NCBI RefSeq assembly: GCF_016127315.1
Contig: NZ_CP065997.1
Coordinates: 5,766,001-5,830,000 of the forward strand
Length of the DNA: 64,000 nt
Direction: 5' to 3'
Origin: Achromobacter deleyi
GTDB lineage: Bacteria; Pseudomonadota; Gammaproteobacteria; Burkholderiales; Burkholderiaceae_B
Below the pieces are notes generated by a model that saw only the letters and a program-made list of their open reading frames with translations, made no database searches and was not told where the DNA came from. Of this stretch, positions 364-11,078 are shown piece after piece. Each line of letters opens with the position of its first letter. The stretch's first letter is position 1. The translations under genes and the position numbers were made by a program.

Positions 364-1544
364 TCAGTAATAGGTCACCCTGACGAGCACCTGGGTCGAG
401 TATTTGCCGATTTTCAGTTCCTTGCCTGGGTCCGGCATCAGCAATGCGGTATAGGTGTGGACCGCCGCGGCGGGGTGGTAGCCGACCAGTTGGCCGAAAG
501 TGCCGATGTCGGCGCGTGAAGGCGGCGCCGGGGCGGGCAGAATGGTGACGGGCAGGTTCGCATTGTCGGCATCGAGTATCTGCATCTTCAGTCCGTTATC
601 GACGCCGTCGTCATTGCTCAGGATGATGGACTGGCCGCCATCGTCGAGGCGCCCTGCCCCTTGCAGGACGAACTGCGCCGCGAGCGGCATCAGGAATTGG
701 GTTTGAGCGTTATCGGGACTGGCGGGCGCGGTCAGGGAGCCGATAGCGCAGGACGGGTTGATTCGGGCGGTGACCGTGAAGGGGTGCTGTTGTGGCAGGG
801 TGCCCGCATAGCCCGTCACCGCCATGACCCCGCCGAACTGCACCAGATTGTCCACACTGACATCGCCGATGCACTGCGGGACGTACTGCATGCGCGTGGC
901 GGAACTGGTGATGAATGGACCGGGCGAACCCCCCGCCCCATAAGCTGCGGCCAGTTTGAATATGGTTGTCGAGGGAACCGGGTAACGCGCCGCTGGAGGG
1001 TTATCGTTTACCACCGACAGCTTGGCGACAAGGCTGACGGTTCGCGGGCCCGAAGTCCCTGTGTAAGGAGGGCCGGCCTCGTGGGTTTCCGATATCGGCA
1101 TAGTCCCCGCGACCAGGTTCGGATACCACGGGTTGCTCTCGTCGCCATTGACGATGATTGCCAGGGCAATCCCGCCTTGGACAAGGCATCGTTCAGCTTG
1201 CTGTAGTCGGCGAGCGCGTACAGCTGGGGCGTGGCGGTAACGGCATTACCTAACCTGTCAAAGTAGTGGCATTCATAGTTGATGACATAGGTGATCGTTC
1301 TATAGATTTCGGCGCCGACCGGCGGCAGCTTGCCAAGCGTGAAATTCACGGAAGGGATCAACGGGATATTGAAGCCGCCGGAGGAAGTGCATCCTCTTCC
1401 CGAGGTCTGTGCCTGCGCCAGGCCCGGCAGTCCCATCAACGCCGCGCAGGAGATGACCAGCATCCCTGCCCTTCGCCTGCCCTTGCGGGCCCAAAGACTC
1501 CCGCCGCGGCGAGGGGTTTGCGCCGTGATTGTCGTGTTGTTCAT
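364..1544 (-). pseudogene. Fimbrial (type 1 pilus-like) tip adhesin, interrupted by a frameshift
   Basis: Two overlapping frames together encode one protein of about 393 residues. The upstream frame (start 1544) gives a signal peptide ending near ALMGLPGLAQAQ and an N-terminal domain up to SKLNDALSKAG. The downstream frame carries IALAIIVNGDESNPWYPN, then a fimbrillin-like domain ending VLVRVTYY, the usual donor beta-strand-type C-terminus of chaperone-usher subunits. The frames join if one base is restored around 1171-1173, so this is a one-base deletion or a base-calling error. Two-domain length and terminus fit a tip adhesin (compare Bordetella FimD). No fimbrillin, chaperone or usher gene is seen next to it. 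As read, it would give only a truncated N-terminal domain. Confidence 0.7.
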
Positions 1545-1927: not shown

Positions 1928-3421
1928 CTACGCCGACCTCTGCGCCGGCTTGAACGGATCGAGCGGATAGCGCGGCCGATTGCGCCGCTGGTACGGGAAC
2001 AGCGAGAAGTCCGAGCTGGTGACGCCGGGGCTGTCGCATTCGATCAGGGCGCACGAGATGGGCACGAACACCGGGCGGCAGTACATGCGCGACTTGACCA
2101 GGATGAAGCGGGCGGCGCGCGGGTCGATGCCCAGGCTCTCGAAGACGCCCAGGTCCCAGGGTTCGTGGGTGCGTTCGGTGATGACCAGTTGCGCGGCGCC
2201 GATGTCCAGCACGGCGCTGCGGCCCATGCAGGCGGTCTGGCCGGTGTAAGTGGGGCCGGTGATGACGTAGCTGCCGTCGGTGATGGCGCGCACCTCGCCG
2301 GTCAGCGTCACCGGCGCGGCGGGTCGGCCGATGGCGGGGATGGGCAGCTTGTTGCCGACCGGCAGTTCGACCCGGGCGCCCTGCCCGGCCGCGATCATGG
2401 CGGCGACGGCTTCGGGGTCGCAATACAGGCCGGCGACGATGCCGGTGAGGCCCGCGTCGACGGCGGCCACCAGCACGTCCATGGTGTCGCAGGTGCCGCC
2501 GGACATGCAGTTGTCGCCGTGGTCCAGCAGCAGCACGGGACGGTCGGCGCCGCGCGCCAGGGCGATGGCGCGGTCGAGCGAGGCGGCCAGGGGTTCGCTT
2601 TCGTAGACGAAGCCGTCGCGGTCGTCCCAGATGGCGGCGGCCAGGCCTGCCGCGACGCGGTCGGCGGCCTCGGCGTCGCCGGCGGCGACCACGATGACGC
2701 TCAGGCACGGGTCGGGGATGTCGGCCAGGGCGAAGCCGGCCAGCACGGACACGCCCAGCATGCCGCCGGCCTCGGCCCCGCGGGCGGCCTGGACGGCGCG
2801 GCGCATGGCGCCTTCGGCGGTGTTGCTGCGCAGGGTGTGGCTCATGAGCGGCAGGCGGCGCCAGGCCAGGCGCGGGCGCGGGCCGCCCGCCAGCCAGTCG
2901 AACAGGAGGCGGCCGGCGTGCTCGCCGGTTTCGTACATGTCGATGTGCGGGTAGGTCTTGAAGCTGACGATGACGTCGGCGTTGTCGATCATCTTTTGCG
3001 TGACGTTGCCGTGCAGGTCCAGGGCGACGGCGATCGGCACGCCAGGGGCTTGCTGGCGCAGGCGTTCGAGCAGGTCGCCTTCGCCGTCGTCGGTGGTCTC
3101 TACCGCCATGGCGCCGTGCAGGTCGAGCAGCAGCGCGTCGCAGCCGACGGCGGCGGCGACGATGCGGTCGCACAGTTCGCGGTAGGCCTGGCCGTCGACG
3201 CGGCCGCTGGGGTAGGCGGTGGCGGACACGGGCGTGACCAGCGTGGCGCCCTGCGCTTCGGCCAAGTCGATGAAGGCGGACATGGCGGTGCGCTTGCCGT
3301 GGTTCTCTTCGTAGGCGGCGGCGTCGTAGGTGGGGCCGTCGTTGCCGAAGGCGGACAGCGGCGTGGGCACCGGCGAAAAGGTGTTGGTCTCGTGGTTCAT
3401 GCGGGCGATCATGACTTTCAT
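1928..3421 (-). CDS. MlrC-like M81 family metallopeptidase
   Basis: A 497-residue protein matching the MlrC (microcystinase C) family in length and motifs. MlrC is a zinc hydrolase that cleaves peptide or amide bonds in linear microcystin products. Visible putative metal or catalytic positions are His10-Glu11 (NHETNTFSP), Asp100/His102 (LDLHGAM), Asp135/His137 (LDLHGN) and His159/Asp161 (YPHID). No signal peptide, so probably cytosolic. Its ATG overlaps the stop of the ANTAR regulator gene by four bases (ATGA), so it is translationally coupled and is the last gene of the amidohydrolase/ABC operon. The natural substrate here is unlikely to be microcystin; an imported amide or peptide is inferred. 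Confidence 0.87.
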   Translation of the reverse strand: MKVMIARMNHETNTFSPVPTPLSAFGNDGPTYDAAAYEENHGKRTAMSAFIDLAEAQGATLVTPVSATAYPSGRVDGQAYRELCDRIVAAAVGCDALLLDLHGAMAVETTDDGEGDLLERLRQQAPGVPIAVALDLHGNVTQKMIDNADVIVSFKTYPHIDMYETGEHAGRLLFDWLAGGPRPRLAWRRLPLMSHTLRSNTAEGAMRRAVQAARGAEAGGMLGVSVLAGFALADIPDPCLSVIVVAAGDAEAADRVAAGLAAAIWDDRDGFVYESEPLAASLDRAIALARGADRPVLLLDHGDNCMSGGTCDTMDVLVAAVDAGLTGIVAGLYCDPEAVAAMIAAGQGARVELPVGNKLPIPAIGRPAAPVTLTGEVRAITDGSYVITGPTYTGQTACMGRSAVLDIGAAQLVITERTHEPWDLGVFESLGIDPRAARFILVKSRMYCRPVFVPISCALIECDSPGVTSSDFSLFPYQRRNRPRYPLDPFKPAQRSA

Positions 3422-4071
3422 GCCTTGCCTCCGTTGTTGCTGTTGTTGTACGGGTCGGGGCGCGCGCCGCCCAGGCCCAGTTTTTCCATGGCTTCGCTGG
3501 CCTCGACGATCATGGCGGCGACCTCGGCCACGCTGACCCGCAGGCCGGTGGCGCGGGTTCGCATGTGTTCGTAGGCGGCGCGTTCGTCCAGGCGTTGGTG
3601 GTCCATCAGCACGCGGATCGCCTTTTCGATCACGCGGCGCGCCTTGATGGTGCTTTCCAGTTTGTCGATCTTGTTCTGCTGGCGGTTCTGGAACTGCTTG
3701 GCCGAGCGCGCCAGCACCAGGGTGCTGAGGATGCCGGCCGAGCGGAACGGCCGCGTCAGCACGCCGTGGGCGTTGGTCTTGAGCAGCTGCTTCAAGGTGG
3801 TGGGGGTTTCGTATTCGGACAGCGCGATCAGCGTGGCGTCGACCTCGCTGGCGGACCAGGCGAACGAGTTCTGGCCGCATTGCGAGACCTGGAAGAACAC
3901 CACGTCGGCGCCGGCCGGCGGCTTGTCGGGGAACGGCCAGACCAGGTGGATGCGGCAGCCGATGCGCTTGAGCTGCTCGACCAGCAGGTCGCGGTCTTCG
4001 CCGGGCGGATAGGCCACGGCGACGGCCACGCTGCGCAGGTCTTCGTAGAGGCGGCGGAGGCTATGGTCCAT
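3418..4071 (-). CDS. AmiR-like ANTAR-domain transcription antiterminator
   Basis: 217 residues: an N-terminal pseudo-receiver (about 10-120), a coiled coil (about 121-145) and a C-terminal ANTAR RNA-binding domain (about 146-192, RRVIEKAIRVLMDHQRLDE then VSVAEVAAMI). This is the AmiR layout of Pseudomonas, where AmiR binds leader RNA and prevents termination unless held by AmiC. The position of the receiver phospho-acceptor reads ADVVFF, so phosphorylation is not obvious. ATG 4071 starts two bases after the AmiC-like gene stop; a GTG just upstream is an alternative. It overlaps mlrC by four bases. Its likely target is the leader terminator at 10913-10950 of its own operon. Confidence 0.9.
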   Translation of the reverse strand: MDHSLRRLYEDLRSVAVAVAYPPGEDRDLLVEQLKRIGCRIHLVWPFPDKPPAGADVVFFQVSQCGQNSFAWSASEVDATLIALSEYETPTTLKQLLKTNAHGVLTRPFRSAGILSTLVLARSAKQFQNRQQNKIDKLESTIKARRVIEKAIRVLMDHQRLDERAAYEHMRTRATGLRVSVAEVAAMIVEASEAMEKLGLGGARPDPYNNSNNGGKA

Positions 4072-4073
4072 GG

Positions 4074-5234
4074 TCACGCCAGCCAAAACTCGTCCAGGCC
4101 GAAGGCCGTCAGGTAGGGGTCCGGCTTGACCGGTTCGCCGCTGGCCCAGACGATGTCGAAGCGGCCGTCGGCGCGGCACAGGCCGATGCGCGGGGTCAGC
4201 ACGCTGTGGTTGTTCTCGGCCAGGATGGTCAGCCGGCCGCCGGGCGCGTCGAAGCCCACCTGGTGCACCGCCTGCACCAGCTTGCGCGTGTCCAGGCTGC
4301 CGGCGCGCTGCAGGGCGCGCGCGAACAGGTGTACCTGGCTGTAGCAGGCTTCGGCGTAGACGCTGGCGGGCCGGTCGCCGAAGCGGGCGCGCCAAAGGTC
4401 CAGGAAATGGGCGTTGGCGGGCGAGTCGACGGTGTTGAAGTAGGTGGCGGCGGTGATGTGGCCGGCGCACAGCGCGGGGTCGATCTCGGCCACTTCGGAT
4501 TCGGCCATGGTGAGGCTGGCGATGGGGATGTGCGGCGCGCCCGGGTCGGCCTCGCAGGCGGCGTGGTAGCGGCGGTAGAAGCGCTGGGCGTCGTCGCCGA
4601 TCAGGGTGGAGAACACCACATCCGGCCGGATGCGGCGGATGTCGCGCACCACGTCGATGATCTCGCCTTCGTCGCAGCCCAGCGGCAGGTAGGTTTCGTC
4701 GAGGATCTCGCCGCCGTGTTCCTCGACGGTGTCGCGCATGATGCGGTTGGTCTCGCGCGGGTAGATGTAGTCGGCGCCCACCAGGAAGATGCGCTTGCCG
4801 CAGTGCTGGATCAGGTAGGCGGCCAGCTGCATGCTGCCCTGGTTGGGCGCGGCGCCGGTGTAGATGATGTTGGGCGAATACTCGAAGCCTTCGTAGACCG
4901 AGGCGTACCAGAGCAGCGCGTTGTTGCGCTCGATCACCGGCAGCATGGCCTTGCGGCAGTGCGAGGTGCAGCCGCCGAAGATCACGTTGACCTCGTCGTC
5001 CAGCAGCAGCCGCGCGGCCAGGCGGCGGTATTCTTCGGCCTCGCTGCGCGGGTCGTAGACCACCGGTTCCAGCGGTCGGCCCAGCACGCCGCCGAGGGCG
5101 TTGATTTCCTCGACCGCCAGCACGGTGCCGAAGAAATGCTGCGATTCGGTGGTGCCGGTCACGCCGCTGCGGGAATACAGCACGCCGATGCGCCATCCCG
5201 GCGCGGCGGCGTCCGTGTCAGTGCGGGGGGTCAT
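4074..5234 (-). CDS. AmiC-like ligand-sensing protein (periplasmic-binding-protein fold, cytosolic)
   Basis: 386 residues with a type I periplasmic binding protein fold of the amide/urea-binding group (GVLYSRSGVTG, EINALGGVLGRPLEPV, NIIYTGAAPNQ). It has no signal peptide, unlike the related binding protein encoded at 8784-9950, which suggests a cytosolic sensor. In the Pseudomonas ami system AmiC binds amides and, when empty, sequesters AmiR. The gene lies two bases upstream of the AmiR-like gene, matching the amiC-amiR order. Ligand unknown; an amide or nitrile taken up by the neighbouring transporter is inferred. Confidence 0.88.
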   Translation of the reverse strand: MTPRTDTDAAAPGWRIGVLYSRSGVTGTTESQHFFGTVLAVEEINALGGVLGRPLEPVVYDPRSEAEEYRRLAARLLLDDEVNVIFGGCTSHCRKAMLPVIERNNALLWYASVYEGFEYSPNIIYTGAAPNQGSMQLAAYLIQHCGKRIFLVGADYIYPRETNRIMRDTVEEHGGEILDETYLPLGCDEGEIIDVVRDIRRIRPDVVFSTLIGDDAQRFYRRYHAACEADPGAPHIPIASLTMAESEVAEIDPALCAGHITAATYFNTVDSPANAHFLDLWRARFGDRPASVYAEACYSQVHLFARALQRAGSLDTRKLVQAVHQVGFDAPGGRLTILAENNHSVLTPRIGLCRADGRFDIVWASGEPVKPDPYLTAFGLDEFWLA

Positions 5235-5272
5235 AGGGGCATCCTTGTGCTCAAACGGGGTTCATGCGGGGC

Positions 5273-5986
5273 TCAGACTTTCAGGTGGTCCATGATATGG
5301 CCGGCGGCCCCGGGCGCGCCAGCCTCGCCCTGGTCGACGATGGCGCCCTGCTTGAGCACCAGGTAGCGGTCGGCCACGTCCAGCGCGAAGGCCACGTTCT
5401 GTTCGACGATGAACATGGACGTGCCGCGCCGTTCGCGTTCCCAGTTCAGGGCGCGTCCCAGCCGCTCGATCACCGAGGGTTGCAGGCCTTCGGTGATTTC
5501 GTCCAGCAGCAGCAGGGCCGGCCGCTGCATCAGGCCGCGCGCCACCAGCAGCATCTTCTGTTCGCCGCCGGACAGCGTGCCGGCGTATTGCCGCAGGCGG
5601 CTGGAGAACACCGGGAACAGCTCGGCGATCTCGCCGAAGCGTTCGTCGAACAGGCGATCATTGGGCAGGCCCAGGCGCAGGTTGTCGCGGATGTTCAGGT
5701 CGGGAAACAGCGGCTGGTCCTGGGCGGCGTAGGCGACGCCGCGGCGGGCGACCTCGTGCGGCCGCAGCCGGGTGGCGTCGACGCCGCCCAGGCTGACCTT
5801 GCCGCGCAGCTTGGGCAGGTAGCCCATCACGGTCTTGAGCAGCGTGCTCTTGCCCATGCCGTTCTTGCCCAGCAGCGCCACGCAGGCGCCGCCGGCCACG
5901 GACAGCGAGATGTCGTTCAGCACCACGGCGCCTTTGTAGCCGCTGGCGACGTGGTCCAGGCGCAAGGCCGGGGCGGCGTGGCTCAT
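5273..5986 (-). CDS. ABC transporter ATP-binding protein, LivF/UrtE type
   Basis: 237 residues. Walker A GKNGMGKST, signature LSGGEQKML, Walker B LLLLDEITEGL and a switch His in the FIVEQNV region are replaced or arranged as in LivF-type subunits. It powers import through the LivH/LivM-type permeases encoded just upstream. The ATG at 5986 overlaps the stop of the fused permease-ATPase gene by four bases. The amide/urea-type binding protein and AmiC/AmiR neighbours favour amide or amino-acid-like substrates over simple branched-chain amino acids. Confidence 0.92.
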   Translation of the reverse strand: MSHAAPALRLDHVASGYKGAVVLNDISLSVAGGACVALLGKNGMGKSTLLKTVMGYLPKLRGKVSLGGVDATRLRPHEVARRGVAYAAQDQPLFPDLNIRDNLRLGLPNDRLFDERFGEIAELFPVFSSRLRQYAGTLSGGEQKMLLVARGLMQRPALLLLDEITEGLQPSVIERLGRALNWERERRGTSMFIVEQNVAFALDVADRYLVLKQGAIVDQGEAGAPGAAGHIMDHLKV

Positions 5987-7902
5987 GCCGGGGCTCCTTG
6001 GGACGGGGTGGGTTGCGGGTCGGGCGGATTGCCGCCGGGGTTTTCGCCGAGGGTGCCGGCCTGGGCGCCCTGCCCGGCCGGCGCGCTGCCGGCGTAGATA
6101 GTGCGCACCAGTTCGGATTCGGTCACCTCGCGGAAGCTGCCGTCCATGACGATGCGGCCCTGGTGCAGCACGATGATGCGGGTGGCCACCTCGGCCACGA
6201 AGTCCAGGTCGTGCTCGACCAGCAAGCAGCACAGGCCGTGAGTATGGGCCAGCGCCGACAGCACCTGGCCGATGCGGGCGCGTTCGTCCTTGCTCAGGCC
6301 CGCGGTGGGTTCGTCCAGCAGCACCACGCGCGGCTCCAGCGCAAGCACCATGGCCAGTTCCAGCGCCTGCTGCTGGCCGTGCGACAGGTCGCGCGCCACG
6401 CGGTCCAGCTGCTGGTCCAGGCCGGTCATGCGCAGCACCTCCAGCGCGTAGGCCGGCAGCGCCAGCCGCGGCGACCGACGCCGCCACGACGGCCGCTCGC
6501 GCAGCGTGGTGGCGATGCGCAGGCTTTCGGCGACCGTCAGCGTGTCGAAGATGTTGGCGTTCTGGAACTTGCGGCCCAGACCGTAACGCACGCACTGCTC
6601 GGGCCCTTCGCGCTTGACCGCGTGGCCGCACAGTTCGACCGAGCCGTCGCTGCGTTCGGCGCCGTCGGCGATGCAGCGCATCAGCGTGGTCTTGCCCGCG
6701 CCGTTGGGGCCGATCAGGCCCAGCAGCTCGCCGCCGCGCGCCCGCAGGTCGATGCCTTCCAGCACCTTGAGGCTGCCGAAGCGCTTGGCCACGCCGGCCA
6801 GCACCAGGCCGCCCTCGCCGCCCGGGGCGCCGGCCCCGTGGCCGGGAGCGGCGCCCGCCGCCGAGGCGGTGGCGGGCGCGCGTACCACCAGCTCAGGCAC
6901 CGGCGCCGCACGCCGCCGGCGCCACGGCGCCAGCAACAGCGGCAGCAGCCCGCGCGGCAGCAGCAGGATCACCAGGATGAAGGTCACGCCCAGCACCAGC
7001 TGGTAGAGGAACGGCATGTTGCCGCTGAGATACGAGCCGGCCACGTTGATCAGCACGGCGCCCAGCACCGGCCCCCACACCGTGCCGCGCCCGCCCAGCG
7101 CCACCCAGATGATGAGTTCGGTGCCGAACACGAAGCCGGTCAGTTCCGGCGCGACCACGCCGCTGAAAGCGCCGTAGCCGAAACCCGCCAGGCTGGCGAC
7201 CGCGCCGCACACCACCAGCAGCGCGATGCGCCAGTGGGCGGTGTTCAGCCCGAGGTAGCTGCAGCGGCCCTCGTTGTCGCGCAGCGCGGCCAGGATGCGG
7301 CCGCCATCGCTGCGCACCGCGACCCAGGCCAGCAGCGCCACGATCGACAGGCCGCCGGCGGCGATGACGTACCAGGCCTCCAGCGACAGGTCGAAGGTGT
7401 CGTAGCCGGTCAGGCCGGACGAGGACCCGGTGTAGGTGCCGCCCGACAGCACGACCTGGGTCAGCACGATGGGCAGCACCAGCGAGATCACGGTGGCGAA
7501 AAACGGCGAGGCGCCGCGGTAGAACGACAGCCAGCCGGTGGCCAGCGCCAGCAGCATCGCCGCCCCCACCGCCACCAGCGCGGCCGCGAGCGCGATGCCC
7601 GGCGAGAAGCCGTAGTGCGTGAAGGCCAGCCCGGCCGCGTAGGCGCCGACGCCGAAGAAGGCCGACTGGCCGAAGGTCAGGTAGCCGGTGTAGCCCCACA
7701 GGATATCGACCGTGACCGCCGCCACCGCGAAGAACAGCGCCTTGATCAGCACGTTCAACAGATAGGTGTCGAACAGCCAGGGGCCCGCCACCGTCAGCGC
7801 CAGGCAGGCGATGGCCAGCCACAGCAGGTCGCGGCCACGGGCGGCGCGGCGCGGATCGGCGCGCGCCGCCAGCGCCGGTTGCGCAAGGGAAGAATCAGTC
7901 AT
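5983..7902 (-). CDS. Fused branched-chain/amide-type ABC transporter permease and ATPase (LivM-LivG)
   Basis: 639 residues in one frame. Residues about 1-340 form a LivM/UrtC-like permease with about eight to ten membrane segments (DILWGYTGYLTFGQSAFFG is typical). A Pro/Ala/Gly-rich linker (about 340-375) leads to a LivG/UrtD-like ATPase (about 375-605) with Walker A GPNGAGKTT, signature LSHGQQQALELAM and Walker B VVLLDEPTAGL. A Gly/Pro/Gln-rich tail follows. It overlaps the livH-like gene by eight bases and livF by four. The fusion leaves the usual five-part Liv importer with four polypeptides. Both domains look intact. Confidence 0.93.
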   Translation of the reverse strand: MTDSSLAQPALAARADPRRAARGRDLLWLAIACLALTVAGPWLFDTYLLNVLIKALFFAVAAVTVDILWGYTGYLTFGQSAFFGVGAYAAGLAFTHYGFSPGIALAAALVAVGAAMLLALATGWLSFYRGASPFFATVISLVLPIVLTQVVLSGGTYTGSSSGLTGYDTFDLSLEAWYVIAAGGLSIVALLAWVAVRSDGGRILAALRDNEGRCSYLGLNTAHWRIALLVVCGAVASLAGFGYGAFSGVVAPELTGFVFGTELIIWVALGGRGTVWGPVLGAVLINVAGSYLSGNMPFLYQLVLGVTFILVILLLPRGLLPLLLAPWRRRRAAPVPELVVRAPATASAAGAAPGHGAGAPGGEGGLVLAGVAKRFGSLKVLEGIDLRARGGELLGLIGPNGAGKTTLMRCIADGAERSDGSVELCGHAVKREGPEQCVRYGLGRKFQNANIFDTLTVAESLRIATTLRERPSWRRRSPRLALPAYALEVLRMTGLDQQLDRVARDLSHGQQQALELAMVLALEPRVVLLDEPTAGLSKDERARIGQVLSALAHTHGLCCLLVEHDLDFVAEVATRIIVLHQGRIVMDGSFREVTESELVRTIYAGSAPAGQGAQAGTLGENPGGNPPDPQPTPSQGAPA

Positions 7903-8728
7903 GGGCGAATCCTTTGGGACGCAGGCGCAGGGTCAGGGCCGCCAGCACCGCGATGGTGACGCCGCCCAGGATCGGGCTGATGAACACGCCCACCAGCACC
8001 TGGCAGGCGCCATAGACCAGGCAGGTCAGGAGCAGCGCGGTGATCGAGTTGCCCGACACCATCACCAGCATGAAGGCGCTGACCAGCCACGGCAGCCCCA
8101 TGTTCGGGTCGACGCTGGACAGCGGCGTGATCAGCGCGCCGGCCAGCGCCCCCAGCCCCGCGCCCAGCGCGAAGGTCGTGAAGCGGATTCGCTCGGCGTT
8201 GATGCCCAGGCCGCGCGCCAGGTCTTCGTTCATGATGACGGCGCGGGTGCGCACGCCGAAGCGCGTGCCGTTCAGCAGCAGCGTCAGCGCCAGGTACAGC
8301 AACAGCGCGCCGGGCACCAGGAACAGCCGGTAGGCCGAATACTCGGTGCCCAGGAACGGCACCGCGCCCTGGATCGGCGCGTCGGCGAACTGCACCTCGC
8401 GGCCGAAGGCCATGGTGATGAGCTGGCCGATCACGATGCCCAGGCCCCAGGTGGCCAGGATGGCGTCCAGCGGCCGCTTGTACAGCGGCTGCACGATCAG
8501 GCGCTCGACCAGCATGCCCACCAGCACGCCCGCCACCAGCGCGCACGGCAACGCCAGCCACGGGTCCAGTCCCAGGCGCGTCACCACCAGGGCGGCGTAG
8601 CTGCCCAGCGTGATGATGGCGCCGTGGGCGAAATTGACGATCTTCATCACGCCGAAGATGATCATCAGCCCGGCCGTCACGATGAACAGCATGGCGGCCG
8701 TGCTCAGGATGTCCAGCATCAAACCCAT
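7895..8728 (-). CDS. ABC transporter inner-membrane permease, LivH/UrtB type
   Basis: 277 residues, very hydrophobic, about eight membrane segments. IFGVMKIVNFAHGAIITLGSY is the signature stretch of LivH-type permeases, and the EAA-like loop region is followed by a GALITPLSSV segment. It pairs with the LivM half of the downstream fusion to form the import channel. It lies 55 bases after the binding-protein gene and overlaps the fusion gene by eight bases. Confidence 0.93.
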   Translation of the reverse strand: MGLMLDILSTAAMLFIVTAGLMIIFGVMKIVNFAHGAIITLGSYAALVVTRLGLDPWLALPCALVAGVLVGMLVERLIVQPLYKRPLDAILATWGLGIVIGQLITMAFGREVQFADAPIQGAVPFLGTEYSAYRLFLVPGALLLYLALTLLLNGTRFGVRTRAVIMNEDLARGLGINAERIRFTTFALGAGLGALAGALITPLSSVDPNMGLPWLVSAFMLVMVSGNSITALLLTCLVYGACQVLVGVFISPILGGVTIAVLAALTLRLRPKGFAHD

Positions 8729-8783
8729 TGTGTTCTCCAGCGCCGCCGGCGAACCGGCGGCGCGCAGGGTGTGGCTTGCCGCG

Positions 8784-9950
8784 TCACTTCAGGTCGGGGC
8801 ACTGCGCGCCCGGATCGACCTGGTCGAAGGTCTGCAGGATCTTGATGGAGCCGTCCTGCTGCACCTGGCCCAGCCGCATGGTCAGGGCGGCGTGGCGCTG
8901 GCGGTCCATCTTGACCGGGCCGCGCGGGCCGTCGAACGACACTTCGCTCAGGGCCTGCACCACCTTCTGCGAGTCGGTGCTGCCGGCTTTCTCGACCGCC
9001 GCCTTGTAGAGGAAGAAGGCTTCGTATTGCGGGCCCGAGAACTCGTTGGCGGTCTTGGCGTCGGCGCCGAACTTGGCCTTCAGGCCGTCCAGGAACTTGT
9101 GGTTCTGCGGCGTATCGATGCTGGTCAGGTACGAGGCCGACAGGTACATGCCCACCGCGGTGTCGCCCATGGTCTTGGCGGTGGCTTCGTCGATGGCCAG
9201 ATTGCCGTAGGGCATGGTCAGGCCGGCCGCCTTGACCTGCTTGGCGAGGCTGACGTTGGGGCCGCCGCCGGCGGTGGAGCTGATCAGCGCGTCCGGGTTG
9301 GCCGAGCGGATCTTCGAGACCACCGGCGTCCAGTCGGAGCCGTCGATCGGCAGGTATTCCTCGCCCACCACGCGCCCGCCCTGCTTCTCGATGTATTCGC
9401 GGGTGAACTTGAGCATGCCGCGGCCGAAGGCGTAGTCGCTACCGACCAGGAAGAAGGTCTTGGCGCCACGCTCTTTCATGAAGTGGTCCACCACCGGCGC
9501 CACCTGCTGCTCGGGCACCCAGCCGTTGACGTGCATCCAGCGGTTGCACGAGCGGCCTTCGTAGAACGAGGTGTAGATGTACGGCACCTTGCCGCGCGAG
9601 ACGATGGGCAGCGCCGCGTTGCGCGCCGCGCTGGTTTCCATGGCGATGATGGCGTCGACCTTCTTCTGGAACACCAGCGTGTCGTAGGCCTTCTGCGCGC
9701 CGACCGCGCCCGAGGCGTCGTCGGCGATCTCCAGCACCACCTGGCGGCCGAGGATGCCGCCGGCGGCGTTGATTTCATCGGCGGCCAGCTGCGAGGCCTG
9801 CACCACGCCGGGCGCGACCACGCTGTTGGCGCCCGACAGGCCCACCGGCACGCCGATGCGCAAGGGGTCGGCCGCGTGCGCGCTGGCGGCGCCGGTCAGC
9901 GCGGCGATGAAGGAAAGTCGGATGAGGAAGCTGCAAGTGGGTTTTTTCAT
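8784..9950 (-). CDS. Periplasmic substrate-binding protein of amide/branched-chain-type ABC importer
   Basis: 388 residues with a Sec signal peptide (MKKPTCSF then a hydrophobic run ending ASAHAADP, cleavage near residue 27). The mature part is a type I binding protein (RIGVPVGLSGANSVVAPG, EINAAGGILGRQVVLEIAD, FFLVGSDYAFGRG). It is distantly similar along its length to the AmiC-like sensor in the same operon, so transporter and sensor probably recognise related ligands. Translation start ATG 9950 lies 39 bases after the nitrilase gene stop. Confidence 0.92.
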   Translation of the reverse strand: MKKPTCSFLIRLSFIAALTGAASAHAADPLRIGVPVGLSGANSVVAPGVVQASQLAADEINAAGGILGRQVVLEIADDASGAVGAQKAYDTLVFQKKVDAIIAMETSAARNAALPIVSRGKVPYIYTSFYEGRSCNRWMHVNGWVPEQQVAPVVDHFMKERGAKTFFLVGSDYAFGRGMLKFTREYIEKQGGRVVGEEYLPIDGSDWTPVVSKIRSANPDALISSTAGGGPNVSLAKQVKAAGLTMPYGNLAIDEATAKTMGDTAVGMYLSASYLTSIDTPQNHKFLDGLKAKFGADAKTANEFSGPQYEAFFLYKAAVEKAGSTDSQKVVQALSEVSFDGPRGPVKMDRQRHAALTMRLGQVQQDGSIKILQTFDQVDPGAQCPDLK

Positions 9951-9989
9951 GGGGATTTCTCCTTGGGGGCCGGCTGTCCGCCGTTGTAT

Positions 9990-10880
9990 TCAACGCTGCC
10001 GCGGCGCATCGGTGGCGCCCAGCAGTTCGTCGTAAAGGTCGCGGCGCCGATCGCGCAGCACGTGGTTGAAGTCGTTCAGTTGCCGCGCGCGGCGCGAGGC
10101 CATCACGTCCACCGGCGCCAGCAGCACCTCTTCGCGGTCGTGGCTGGCGGGGCCGGCGCTGGTCCAGCCCTGCGAGCCGACGATCAGGCTGCGCCCGACG
10201 AAGGGCTGGCCGCGCTCGACGCCGACGCGGTCGGCGCACACCAGCGTCAGGCCGTTGCTGTGGGCGCCGGCAATCGCCAGCGCGTGCGCCATGGCCGGGC
10301 CGTCGGGCGTCTGCCCGGGCATCGGCACCCAGTTGGTCGGCACCGCGACGATGTCGGCGCCGCGCAGCGCCAGCAGGCGATAGACCTCGGGGAACCAGCC
10401 GTCGTAGCAGATCGCCACGCCGATGCGGCCCAGCGCGGTGTGGAACACCGGCAGGCCCAGGTCGCCCGGCTCGAAGAACAGGTTCTCGTCGCCCCACAGG
10501 TGCAGCTTGCGGTAGGTGCCCAGGTAGCCGTCGGGGCCGGCGATGAGGGCGGCGTTGTAGAGCTTGCCGCCGCTGCGCTCGGCGATGCCGGCCACCAGGT
10601 AGATGCCCAGGCGCCGCGCCAGCGCGATCCAGGCCTGCGAGCTGGGGCCGTCGGGCACGGCTTCGGCCAGCGCGTGGGCCTCTTCGCGGCTGGCGAACAT
10701 GTAGCCGGTGTTGGCCAGCTCGGGCAGCACCACCAGCCGCGCGCCCTGCGCGGCGGCCTGCTCGGCCAGCTCGATGGATCGGGCCACGTTGGCCGCGACA
10801 TCCCCCATGACGGGGGCCGTCTGCACACTGGCCACGTGGATCGCGGACGCGGCGGCGTCCGGCGGCGGTGATACTTGCAT
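9990..10880 (-). CDS. Nitrilase/carbon-nitrogen hydrolase superfamily amidohydrolase
   Basis: 296 residues with the full nitrilase-superfamily triad: Glu54 (VVLPELANTG), Lys125 (TYRKLHLWGDE) and Cys158 (GVAICYDGWFPE). Such enzymes hydrolyse amides, nitriles or carbamoyl groups in the cytosol. ATG 10880 has a GGGAG ribosome site; an in-frame GTG/ATG further upstream would read through the terminator hairpin and is rejected. It is the first gene of the operon, directly behind the leader terminator, as amiE is in Pseudomonas, although AmiE itself is a longer aliphatic amidase. Exact substrate cannot be read from the sequence. Confidence 0.9.
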   Translation of the reverse strand: MQVSPPPDAAASAIHVASVQTAPVMGDVAANVARSIELAEQAAAQGARLVVLPELANTGYMFASREEAHALAEAVPDGPSSQAWIALARRLGIYLVAGIAERSGGKLYNAALIAGPDGYLGTYRKLHLWGDENLFFEPGDLGLPVFHTALGRIGVAICYDGWFPEVYRLLALRGADIVAVPTNWVPMPGQTPDGPAMAHALAIAGAHSNGLTLVCADRVGVERGQPFVGRSLIVGSQGWTSAGPASHDREEVLLAPVDVMASRRARQLNDFNHVLRDRRRDLYDELLGATDAPRQR

Positions 10881-10908
10881 GCGATCTCCCTGCAACGTTT
10901 CGGAAAAC

Positions 10909-10950
10909 AAAAAAGCCCCCGACCACGCATCGCGTGTGAGTCGGGGGCTT
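10909..10950 (-). terminator. Strong intrinsic terminator inside the operon leader
   Basis: On the minus strand AAGCCCCCGAC (10950-10940) pairs with GTCGGGGGCTT (10923-10913), an 11-bp stem. The loop can form an inner CACGC/GCGTG hairpin. Six Ts follow (10914-10909), then GTTTTCC. It lies 28 bases upstream of the nitrilase start and downstream of the likely promoter, so it would stop transcription before the first gene unless overcome. With amiC/amiR-like genes in the same operon this fits an antitermination switch. Confidence 0.85.
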
Positions 10951-10972
10951 CTATAGCCAGACGAAGGTTCGG

Positions 10973-11040
10973 GCAGCAATCATTGCTGCGGGGCACTGCC
11001 GCGCCAGGCAGTGCCGGCGCGTGCGGATCAGTCCTGATCC
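10973..11040 (-). promoter_or_regulatory. Operon leader with three consecutive inverted repeats (candidate antiterminator RNA)
   Basis: Reading the minus strand: GGATCA-GGAC-TGATCC (11040-11025), GGCACTGCC-TGGCGC-GGCAGTGCC in two 9-base arms (11015-10992), then GCAGCAAT-G-ATTGCTGC (10989-10973). All are perfect and stand between the promoter and the terminator. ANTAR proteins typically bind paired hexaloop hairpins. The second hairpin has a six-base loop and the first can be drawn with one, but neither loop has the usual A1/G4 pattern, so the target is inferred from position, not from consensus. Confidence 0.65.
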
Positions 11041-11048
11041 TGTGGCGA

Positions 11049-11078
11049 ATCATAGGGATGCGCGCCAGCCCGGGGCAA
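11049..11078 (-). promoter_or_regulatory. Putative sigma-70 promoter of the amidohydrolase/ABC/AmiCR operon
   Basis: Minus-strand -35 TTGCCC (11078-11073) and -10 TATGAT (11054-11049) are separated by 18 bases. Transcription would begin near 11042, immediately before the first leader hairpin, giving a leader of about 160 bases. Only the -10 is a good match. Confidence 0.5.

Follow-up and report, generated by a model that had tools for sequence, protein, structure and literature searches.

The window analysed here is a stretch of 64,000 nucleotides (nt) from the genome of Achromobacter deleyi (contig NZ_CP065997.1, positions 5,766,001 to 5,830,000), which is assembled as a single contig of 6.99 Mb. 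On its minus strand, from 1928 to 10880, lies an operon in which an ATP-binding cassette (ABC) importer and two hydrolases are encoded together with relatives of the Pseudomonas aeruginosa proteins AmiC and AmiR. All eight open reading frames (ORFs) are intact and co-directional, at the positions and of the families given by a first-pass annotation of this DNA; domain families were assigned with Pfam, and equivalog tests were performed with NCBIfam models.

The first gene, nit (9990..10880), encodes a nitrilase-superfamily C-N hydrolase of 296 amino acids (aa) with a CN_hydrolase domain. It is followed by the genes for an ABC substrate-binding protein (8784..9950, 388 aa, Peripla_BP_6), a LivH/UrtB-like permease (7895..8728, 277 aa, BPD_transp_2), a LivM-LivG fusion in which permease and ATPase form a single protein (5983..7902, 639 aa, BPD_transp_2 and ABC_tran), and a LivF/UrtE-like ATPase (5273..5986, 237 aa, ABC_tran). 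The AmiC-like ligand sensor (4074..5234, 386 aa, Peripla_BP_5), the AmiR-like antiterminator (3418..4071, 217 aa, AmiR_N and ANTAR), and, as a lineage-specific addition, an MlrC/M81-like hydrolase (1928..3421, 497 aa, M81 and MlrC_C) complete the unit. By eye, the substrate-binding protein begins with a hydrophobic signal-like segment, and no obvious one is seen on the AmiC-like protein. The genes had been called mostly overlapping, which holds for only three of the seven junctions (8, 4, and 4 nt); at the remaining junctions the genes are separated by gaps of 2, 38, 39, and 55 nt.

The leader RNA and its conservation

Directly upstream of nit, two hairpins and an intrinsic terminator were recognized on the minus strand: P1 (GCAGC-AATGATT-GCTGC, 10973..10989), P2 (GGCU-AUAGA-AGCC, 10946..10958), and a terminator with an 11-bp outer stem followed by six U (10909..10950), which ends a little less than 30 nt upstream of the nit start codon. 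The terminator stem begins with the bases of the 3' arm of P2 (10946-10950), and therefore P2 and the terminator are mutually exclusive. This is the arrangement described for ANTAR proteins in the excerpt of PMC3369931, where the protein stabilizes a second hairpin that overlaps the terminator. The folding of the leader is more stable than that of all 200 shuffled sequences (z −3.38), with −27.7 kcal/mol for the terminator, −8.1 for P1, and −3.6 for P2. When P2 is forced, the leader folds at −30.6 kcal/mol, against −40.1 for free folding. The cost of 9.5 kcal/mol suggests that the terminator is the default and that a bound protein would be needed to stabilize P2. The terminator was not listed in a consensus terminator scan of the window, probably since more than 8 nt lie within its outer stem, and Rfam at gathering scores gave no match in the window.

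Further upstream are a hairpin H1 of 9 bp (10992..11015), which is not generally conserved and appears by eye altered or absent in other leaders, a hairpin H0 (GGATC-AGGACT-GATCC, 11025..11040), and a sigma-70-like promoter (TTGCCC-18-TATGAT, 11049..11078) with 9 of 12 consensus matches. In a survey with stems filtered for ATC or GTC, an H0-type hairpin readable with a 6-nt loop was found in 21 of 21 Achromobacter and Bordetella leaders, the window included, at a distance of 19-72 nt 5' of P1; the loop is ANNANN in 20 of them, and the stems vary with compensating changes. H0 might be a third AmiR site. Two promoter-like sites of the same quality were observed in 10.2 kb on both strands against 0.7 expected, and thus the promoter call is weak taken alone; TTGACA-like and TAAT-like boxes are visible by eye 5' of P1 in many relatives. 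The first-pass annotation had proposed promoter, hairpins, and terminator together, and it is the hairpins and the terminator that are borne out, by the folding and by their recurrence in relatives.

P1, linker, P2, and terminator are visible by eye in 57 related loci and in the window, with a different P1 stem in Bradyrhizobium. An ANTAR-type hairpin pair whose second hairpin overlaps a terminator is present in all 59 loci with a visible leader region, namely the 57 loci from which 80 nt were extracted 5' of nit up to the terminator U-run, and L022 and L024, found by a covariance model. L005 is outside this count, as the locus begins within the operon, in the fusion gene. The related leaders argue that the window leader is not a product of chance.

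The covariation was analyzed in an alignment (A2) of 55 of the 58 extracted leaders, from which L008, L014, and L017 were omitted as near-duplicates (model scores 82-86 bits); with identical rows counted once, 51 distinct leaders remained. The 5-bp helix of P1 is paired in 99.6% of cells, and three of its five pairs are altered on both sides. For P1 and the terminator, 69 double-change cells were counted against 22.1 in shuffled alignments, with 89.0% of cells paired against 83.5; for P1 and P2, the figures are 31 and 7.3, all 31 falling within P1. These shuffle figures are not probabilities, because shuffling ignores relatedness. Slid controls had fewer paired cells and fewer double changes. 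The P2 of Bradyrhizobium is one base shorter and misaligned by one column in A2, which lowers the pair counts there.

With the covariance model, the own genome contains one element of 82 bits, and no second site above 21.3 bits was found among the 150 of 4513 first-look candidates that were scored. Two Acidovorax operons are split, and both halves of each have a full element in front of them, with scores of 89.2 and 75.8 bits in L144 and of 90.3 and 74.4 bits in L145. The model also matches 5' of a gene of the amiE cluster in L067 (35 bits) and L074 (28 bits). Within the family, 13 of 151 genomes were matched, seven with E ≤ 1.1e-7 and six with E from 4e-4 to 0.0093. Five of these six weak matches (L103, L104, L105, L106, and L108) were rejected: their ORFs were compared by blastp with the eight window proteins and the ORFs of L003-L082, neither AmiR nor nit was found among them, and therefore they were treated as chance.

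Distribution of the operon and its enzymes

Systematic screening for AmiR was performed with one genome per species from 84,980 species, and the best 80 of the 102 relatives found were kept as loci. The nit-type operon (nit, binding protein, LivH, LivM-LivG fusion, LivF, amiC, and amiR) is present in 60 of these 80 loci (L003-L062), from 12 named genera: Achromobacter, Bordetella, Acidovorax, Paracidovorax, Hylemonella, Variovorax, Ramlibacter, Herbaspirillum, Cupriavidus, Schauerella, Pseudomonas, and Bradyrhizobium. The gene set without mlrC is therefore no accident of one genome, the case that the first-pass annotation had named as refuting its reading. In L056 and L060, short contigs end within LivH so that the fusion and LivF are out of view, and in L022 and L024 nit, which is on the same contig but just beyond the limits of the first locus, was recovered by a second search. 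An amiC match lies no more than 500 nt 5' of amiR in 60 of 60 loci, and Bradyrhizobium has the gene order amiC-amiR-leader-nit-importer. In an unrooted AmiR tree, in which the P. aeruginosa and EutV rows form very long branches, the 60 nit-type proteins are separated from the rest by a branch with support 98/83, present in 98% of 200 bootstrap trees. The window AmiR is 98-100% identical to those of A. insuavis, A. ruhlandii, A. dolens, and A. pulmonis. At family level, nit was found in 37 of 268 genomes at E 1e-80, and the operon is thus patchy; a class-wide nit search at E 1e-60 gave a hit in one of 369 genomes, the own genome only.

In the Acidovorax loci L022 and L024 (with L144 and L145), genes for a methyl-accepting chemotaxis receptor and a second substrate-binding protein separate nit from livH. 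The chemoreceptor suggests chemotaxis towards the compound handled by the operon.

The AmiC-like protein of the window aligns over its full length with P. aeruginosa AmiC in PDB (310 bits), and the AmiR-like protein matches AmiR in PDB with 96 bits. Positions 83, 85, 104, 106, 108, 109, 150, and 234 of AmiC, which we take to line the ligand pocket, were compared between the 60 nit-type AmiCs and 22 others. No exception to S85, Y108, E109, or Y150 occurs in either group; Y104 is present in 60/60 and 20/22, respectively. Tyr83, found in 22/22 of the others, is replaced by Ser or Cys in 60/60 nit-type proteins; residue 106 is Ser in 60/60 versus Thr (17) or Val (5); and Thr234, again 22/22 in the others, is Met in 59/60. 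Two AmiC sequences in PDB also differ at residue 106 (Thr and Asn), the Asn106 form presumably being a butyramide-induced mutant. From this pattern we infer an amide-like ligand and a reshaped pocket.

The nit protein matches PF00795 with 187.5 bits and has E54, K125, and C158 within the expected motifs, which we take to be the Glu-Lys-Cys triad. Its closest solved relatives are PH0642 and other CN-hydrolases. The best NCBIfam models are those for archaeal nitrilase (NF040852, 241.2 against a cut-off of 500 bits) and N-carbamoylputrescine amidase, both below cut-off, and the AmiE model NF009802 gives 44.9 bits against 427. Judged by the relatives of the operon proteins, a small amide is the likeliest substrate.

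A second hydrolase gene is exchangeable among the 60 loci. Counted by tblastn, with one of each slot gene typed with Pfam (L023 and L036), an asparaginase-like gene lies between livF and amiC in 20 loci and an amidase-signature gene in two, while 38 have neither; 16 of these 38 have mlrC 3' of amiR and 10 are Bradyrhizobium. As the last gene of the unit, mlrC is seen in 16 of 60 loci, all Achromobacter, which corresponds to 16 of the 20 Achromobacter loci; L039 ends 0.3 kb past amiR and is uninformative. In the family search, MlrC relatives (E 1e-130) were found in 90 of 268 genomes. Of the 37 nit genomes, 22 have mlrC no more than 10 kb from nit; all 22 are among the 28 from Achromobacter, none among the nine from outside, and mlrC thus looks as though it was added to the unit within one lineage. 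Eight of the nine outside carry MlrC relatives on other contigs. In the remaining six Achromobacter nit genomes, mlrC is on another contig: two copies of 92-94% identity are likely due to contig breaks, and four of 78-79% resemble stand-alone copies. MlrC as a core part of the operon was ruled out on these counts, and the place given to it by the first-pass annotation in the general logic of the operon finds no support beyond Achromobacter. The proposed substrate with both an amide- or nitrile-like and a peptide-like bond loses its general basis with this restriction, since the other loci have an asparaginase-like or an amidase-signature gene for the second enzyme, or none that was seen.

The window MlrC scores 144.6 bits against a cut-off of 999 with the microcystinase MlrC model NF041767, and its DLH and PHID motifs, presumably with a metal role, align with 7ylq. 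Among the genes directly 3' of amiR in L025, L027, L028, L030, and L041, no Pfam family is common to any two. Where 2wlt has its mobile-loop Tyr and its SQD, the asparaginase-fold protein of L023 (L023:7805-8830) has other residues, and so it may not act on asparagine.

AmiR residues, hairpin loops and known relatives

The recognition of RNA by an ANTAR protein has been described for EutV. According to the excerpt of PMC8934654, the substitution M172A abolished RNA binding, Met172 was proposed as a plug of the hexaloop and perhaps a gate for loop size, Tyr164 stacks on G4, and Arg142, Lys149, and Glu160 contact G4. The canonical target RNA has two hexaloops with A1 and G4 (PMC3369931, excerpt).

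In EutV numbering, position 172 of the 60 nit-group AmiRs is Thr in 59 and Lys in one (L049), and position 149 is Ile in 44 and Val in 16. The 21 other AmiRs have Met172 in all cases and Lys149 in 18, and both residues are found in P. aeruginosa AmiR and EutV. The nit group keeps Tyr164 (60/60), Arg142 (60/60), Glu160 (54/60), and Lys147 as in EutV (59/60); the other 21 depart from EutV at 142 and 147, with Arg142 absent in all. The EutV-like contact surface of Met172, Lys149, Tyr164, Arg142, and Glu160 is thus incomplete in the nit group. Among the 120 database homologues listed of 408 found, Thr172 was recognized by pattern in 119, and the last, with a small deletion, reads Thr by eye. In L049, the P2 sequence is GGCUAUGAAAGCC.

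P1 loops were recounted separately after the first loop script had taken hairpins other than P1 in some rows. In 58 leaders, 28 loops are of 6 nt on a C[A/G]GC-GC[T/C]G stem, 22 are of 7 nt, and eight are on other stems (Bradyrhizobium). Twenty-six of the 28 six-nt loops have A1 and A4, the other two being CGGUCG from Bradyrhizobium, and G4 is found in none. P2 is GGC-7-GCC in 47 of 58 leaders, with an inner U-A pair possible.

For comparison, 14 candidate elements from non-nit loci were collected by pattern searches and read by eye (L066, L067, L072 twice, L074, L076-L079, L080 twice, L081, L082, and L109); the L066 candidate may be chance, given its distance from the ami genes of that locus. 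A strict correspondence of Met172 with a 6-nt P2 loop was rejected, as 10 of 14 fit and L077, L078, L079, and L081 have 7-nt loops despite Met. A4 as a specialty of the nit group was rejected likewise: L074, L082, L072, and L080, with Met-bearing AmiRs, read A4 by eye. Some Met-bearing loci thus break the A1/G4 rule as well. Changes in the loops therefore have no one-to-one correspondence with those in the residues, and the nit group is a single evolutionary event. It is conceivable, on the doubtful side of even, that nit-type AmiRs are a natural re-engineering of ANTAR-RNA recognition, in which the Met172 plug and Lys149 were lost and the hairpins differ accordingly (A4 P1 hexaloops, P2 closing to 5 nt), so that they would be insulated from cross-talk with a second, Met-bearing AmiC/AmiR pair. 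The co-change part of this proposal is weakened by the Met-bearing AmiRs with A4 or 7-nt P2 loops.

Such a second pair is encoded in the own genome, in an operon at about 1,174,200-1,184,500 of the contig (L102 and L109, G000:C1:1165000-1185400). Its order is binding protein-livH-livM-livG-livF-amiE-CbbQ-type ATPase-VWA-domain protein-amiC-amiR; AmiE scores 723.8 bits against the cut-off of 427, and the VWA-domain protein 27.1 against 27. It has its own terminator leader, with P2 read as GGGC-AAAAAG-GCCC, and its AmiR has Met172 and falls outside the nit group in the tree. Like the nit type, this operon joins AmiC/AmiR, an ABC importer, and an amidase or hydrolase in one cluster, but it has AmiE, permease and ATPase in separate ORFs, and the additional CbbQ-type and VWA-domain genes.

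The amidase operon of P. aeruginosa consists of amiE, amiB, amiC, amiR, and amiS, and we take AmiS to stand where the nit operon has an ABC importer. The nit enzyme is not AmiE, and the loops and the AmiR contact residues are different; the AmiC sensor, an AmiR with AmiR_N and ANTAR, and a two-hairpin terminator leader are shared (PMC3369931, excerpt). Two hairpins, the second overlapping the terminator, are also found in EutV/eut and NasR/nasF, for which the excerpts of PMC3369931 and PMC8934654 report A1/G4 hexaloops and an essential Met172; the nit system differs by A1/A4 hexaloops or 7-nt loops in P1, a mostly 5- or 7-nt loop in P2, and Thr172. Two plasmid operons described in the excerpt of PMC13209695 are also related: that of Klebsiella pKOS9W-1 with amiE, amiC, amiR, and four ABC genes, and that of P. 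veronii with amiE, amiC, amiR, and CbbQ- and NorD-like genes. The former, compared by description only, likewise joins AmiC/AmiR, an ABC importer, and an amidase, there AmiE. AmiC/AmiR control of an importer and an amidase is thus already known in general design, and the novelty that the first-pass annotation had supposed for the gene combination is confined to the nit type. No description of the nit-type operon, of its variable hydrolase, or of its leader was found in open-licence PMC papers, where the Thr172 substitution was not separately searched; the excerpt of PMC6784897 does not describe the operon.

Proposed function and rival explanations

The operon is best explained, with a probability of roughly 80%, as an amide-type nitrogen-scavenging operon under ligand-regulated antitermination by AmiC/AmiR, a reading made from sequence comparison. 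Without ligand, AmiC would hold AmiR, as we infer from the P. aeruginosa pair, and most transcripts would end at the terminator before nit. Binding of the substrate or of a product to AmiC would release AmiR, which would then dimerize and stabilize P1 and P2. With P2 formed, the terminator stem could not close, and RNA polymerase would enter nit, the importer, amiC, and amiR, and mlrC in Achromobacter. The importer is predicted to take up a small amide-like compound and nit to hydrolyze it, and lineages may add a second C-N hydrolase of the asparaginase-like, amidase-signature, or MlrC type. The first-pass annotation had proposed the same antitermination over an import-and-hydrolysis operon; gene set and leaders agree with it by comparison, while its analogy to known ANTAR systems is incomplete in loops and RNA-contact residues.

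Several observations weigh against this reading. The nit leaders depart from the A1/G4 hexaloop rule, the Bradyrhizobium loops of the CGGUCG type lack A1 too, and with the Met plug missing, AmiR recognition of the leader is not a given. Folded alone, the window P1 is a 7-bp helix with a loop of only 3 nt, and in isolated H0 the loop A and T pair as well, leaving 4 nt unpaired. The covariation shows no excess in further pair types (25 against 24.9 shuffled for P1 and terminator) or in how many pairs carry double changes (3 against 2.6 for P1 and P2). P2 has no double change, and since its bases are common with the terminator, its conservation is not independent evidence. Among the NCBIfam equivalog cut-offs shown, none is reached by any of the eight proteins, and the substrate class is drawn from relatives alone.

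The unusual RNA-contact residues of AmiR would fit a leader terminator that is a plain attenuator, or the terminator of an upstream gene, with AmiC/AmiR working in trans on another RNA. We regard this as quite unlikely, as P1, P2, and terminator stand directly 5' of nit in all 57 loci, including Bradyrhizobium, where amiC-amiR precede nit, and elements precede both halves of the two split operons; nor did the own genome yield a second strong element among the candidates scored. A nitrile or peptide-like compound processed by nit and MlrC together is an unlikely substrate. It would suit the position of mlrC at the end of the unit or near nit in most Achromobacter, and its presence beside amiR on the opposite strand (66% identity) in one Cupriavidus with the amidase-signature gene. 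However, mlrC in the unit was not seen in 44 of 60 loci, L039 being uninformative, only 22 of the 90 family genomes with MlrC relatives have it near nit, none outside the genus, and AmiC keeps S85, Y104, Y108, E109, and Y150 of the P. aeruginosa protein. The use of urea is very improbable, even though the importer has the subunit types of UrtABCDE, its best hidden Markov models are UrtA-UrtE, and urea-binding proteins are the closest solved relatives of the binding protein. The UrtABCDE equivalog cut-offs are missed (UrtA 246.4 of 492.75 bits), the UrtC and UrtD equivalents are fused, and no urease or urea amidolyase domain was found in the eight genes or in the ten genes of other loci, neighbours and slot genes, that were typed.

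If the nitrogen-scavenging reading is right, AmiC/AmiR control extends to a conserved importer-hydrolase operon in alpha-, beta-, and gammaproteobacteria, for whose RNA switch a covariance model has been obtained. The nit-type AmiRs would then be a naturally occurring case in which a residue judged essential for ANTAR-RNA binding from mutagenesis is missing. With two paralogous switches in one genome, specificity can be tested directly, and the exchange of the second hydrolase between lineages helps to narrow down the substrate.

Downstream of the operon, on the minus strand of the window (364-1544), are two ORFs of 178 and 245 aa that overlap and are read in different frames; the first begins with a signal-like segment. 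Pfam gave no match for either of them, and by eye the two could be pieces of a single secreted fimbrial-type protein.

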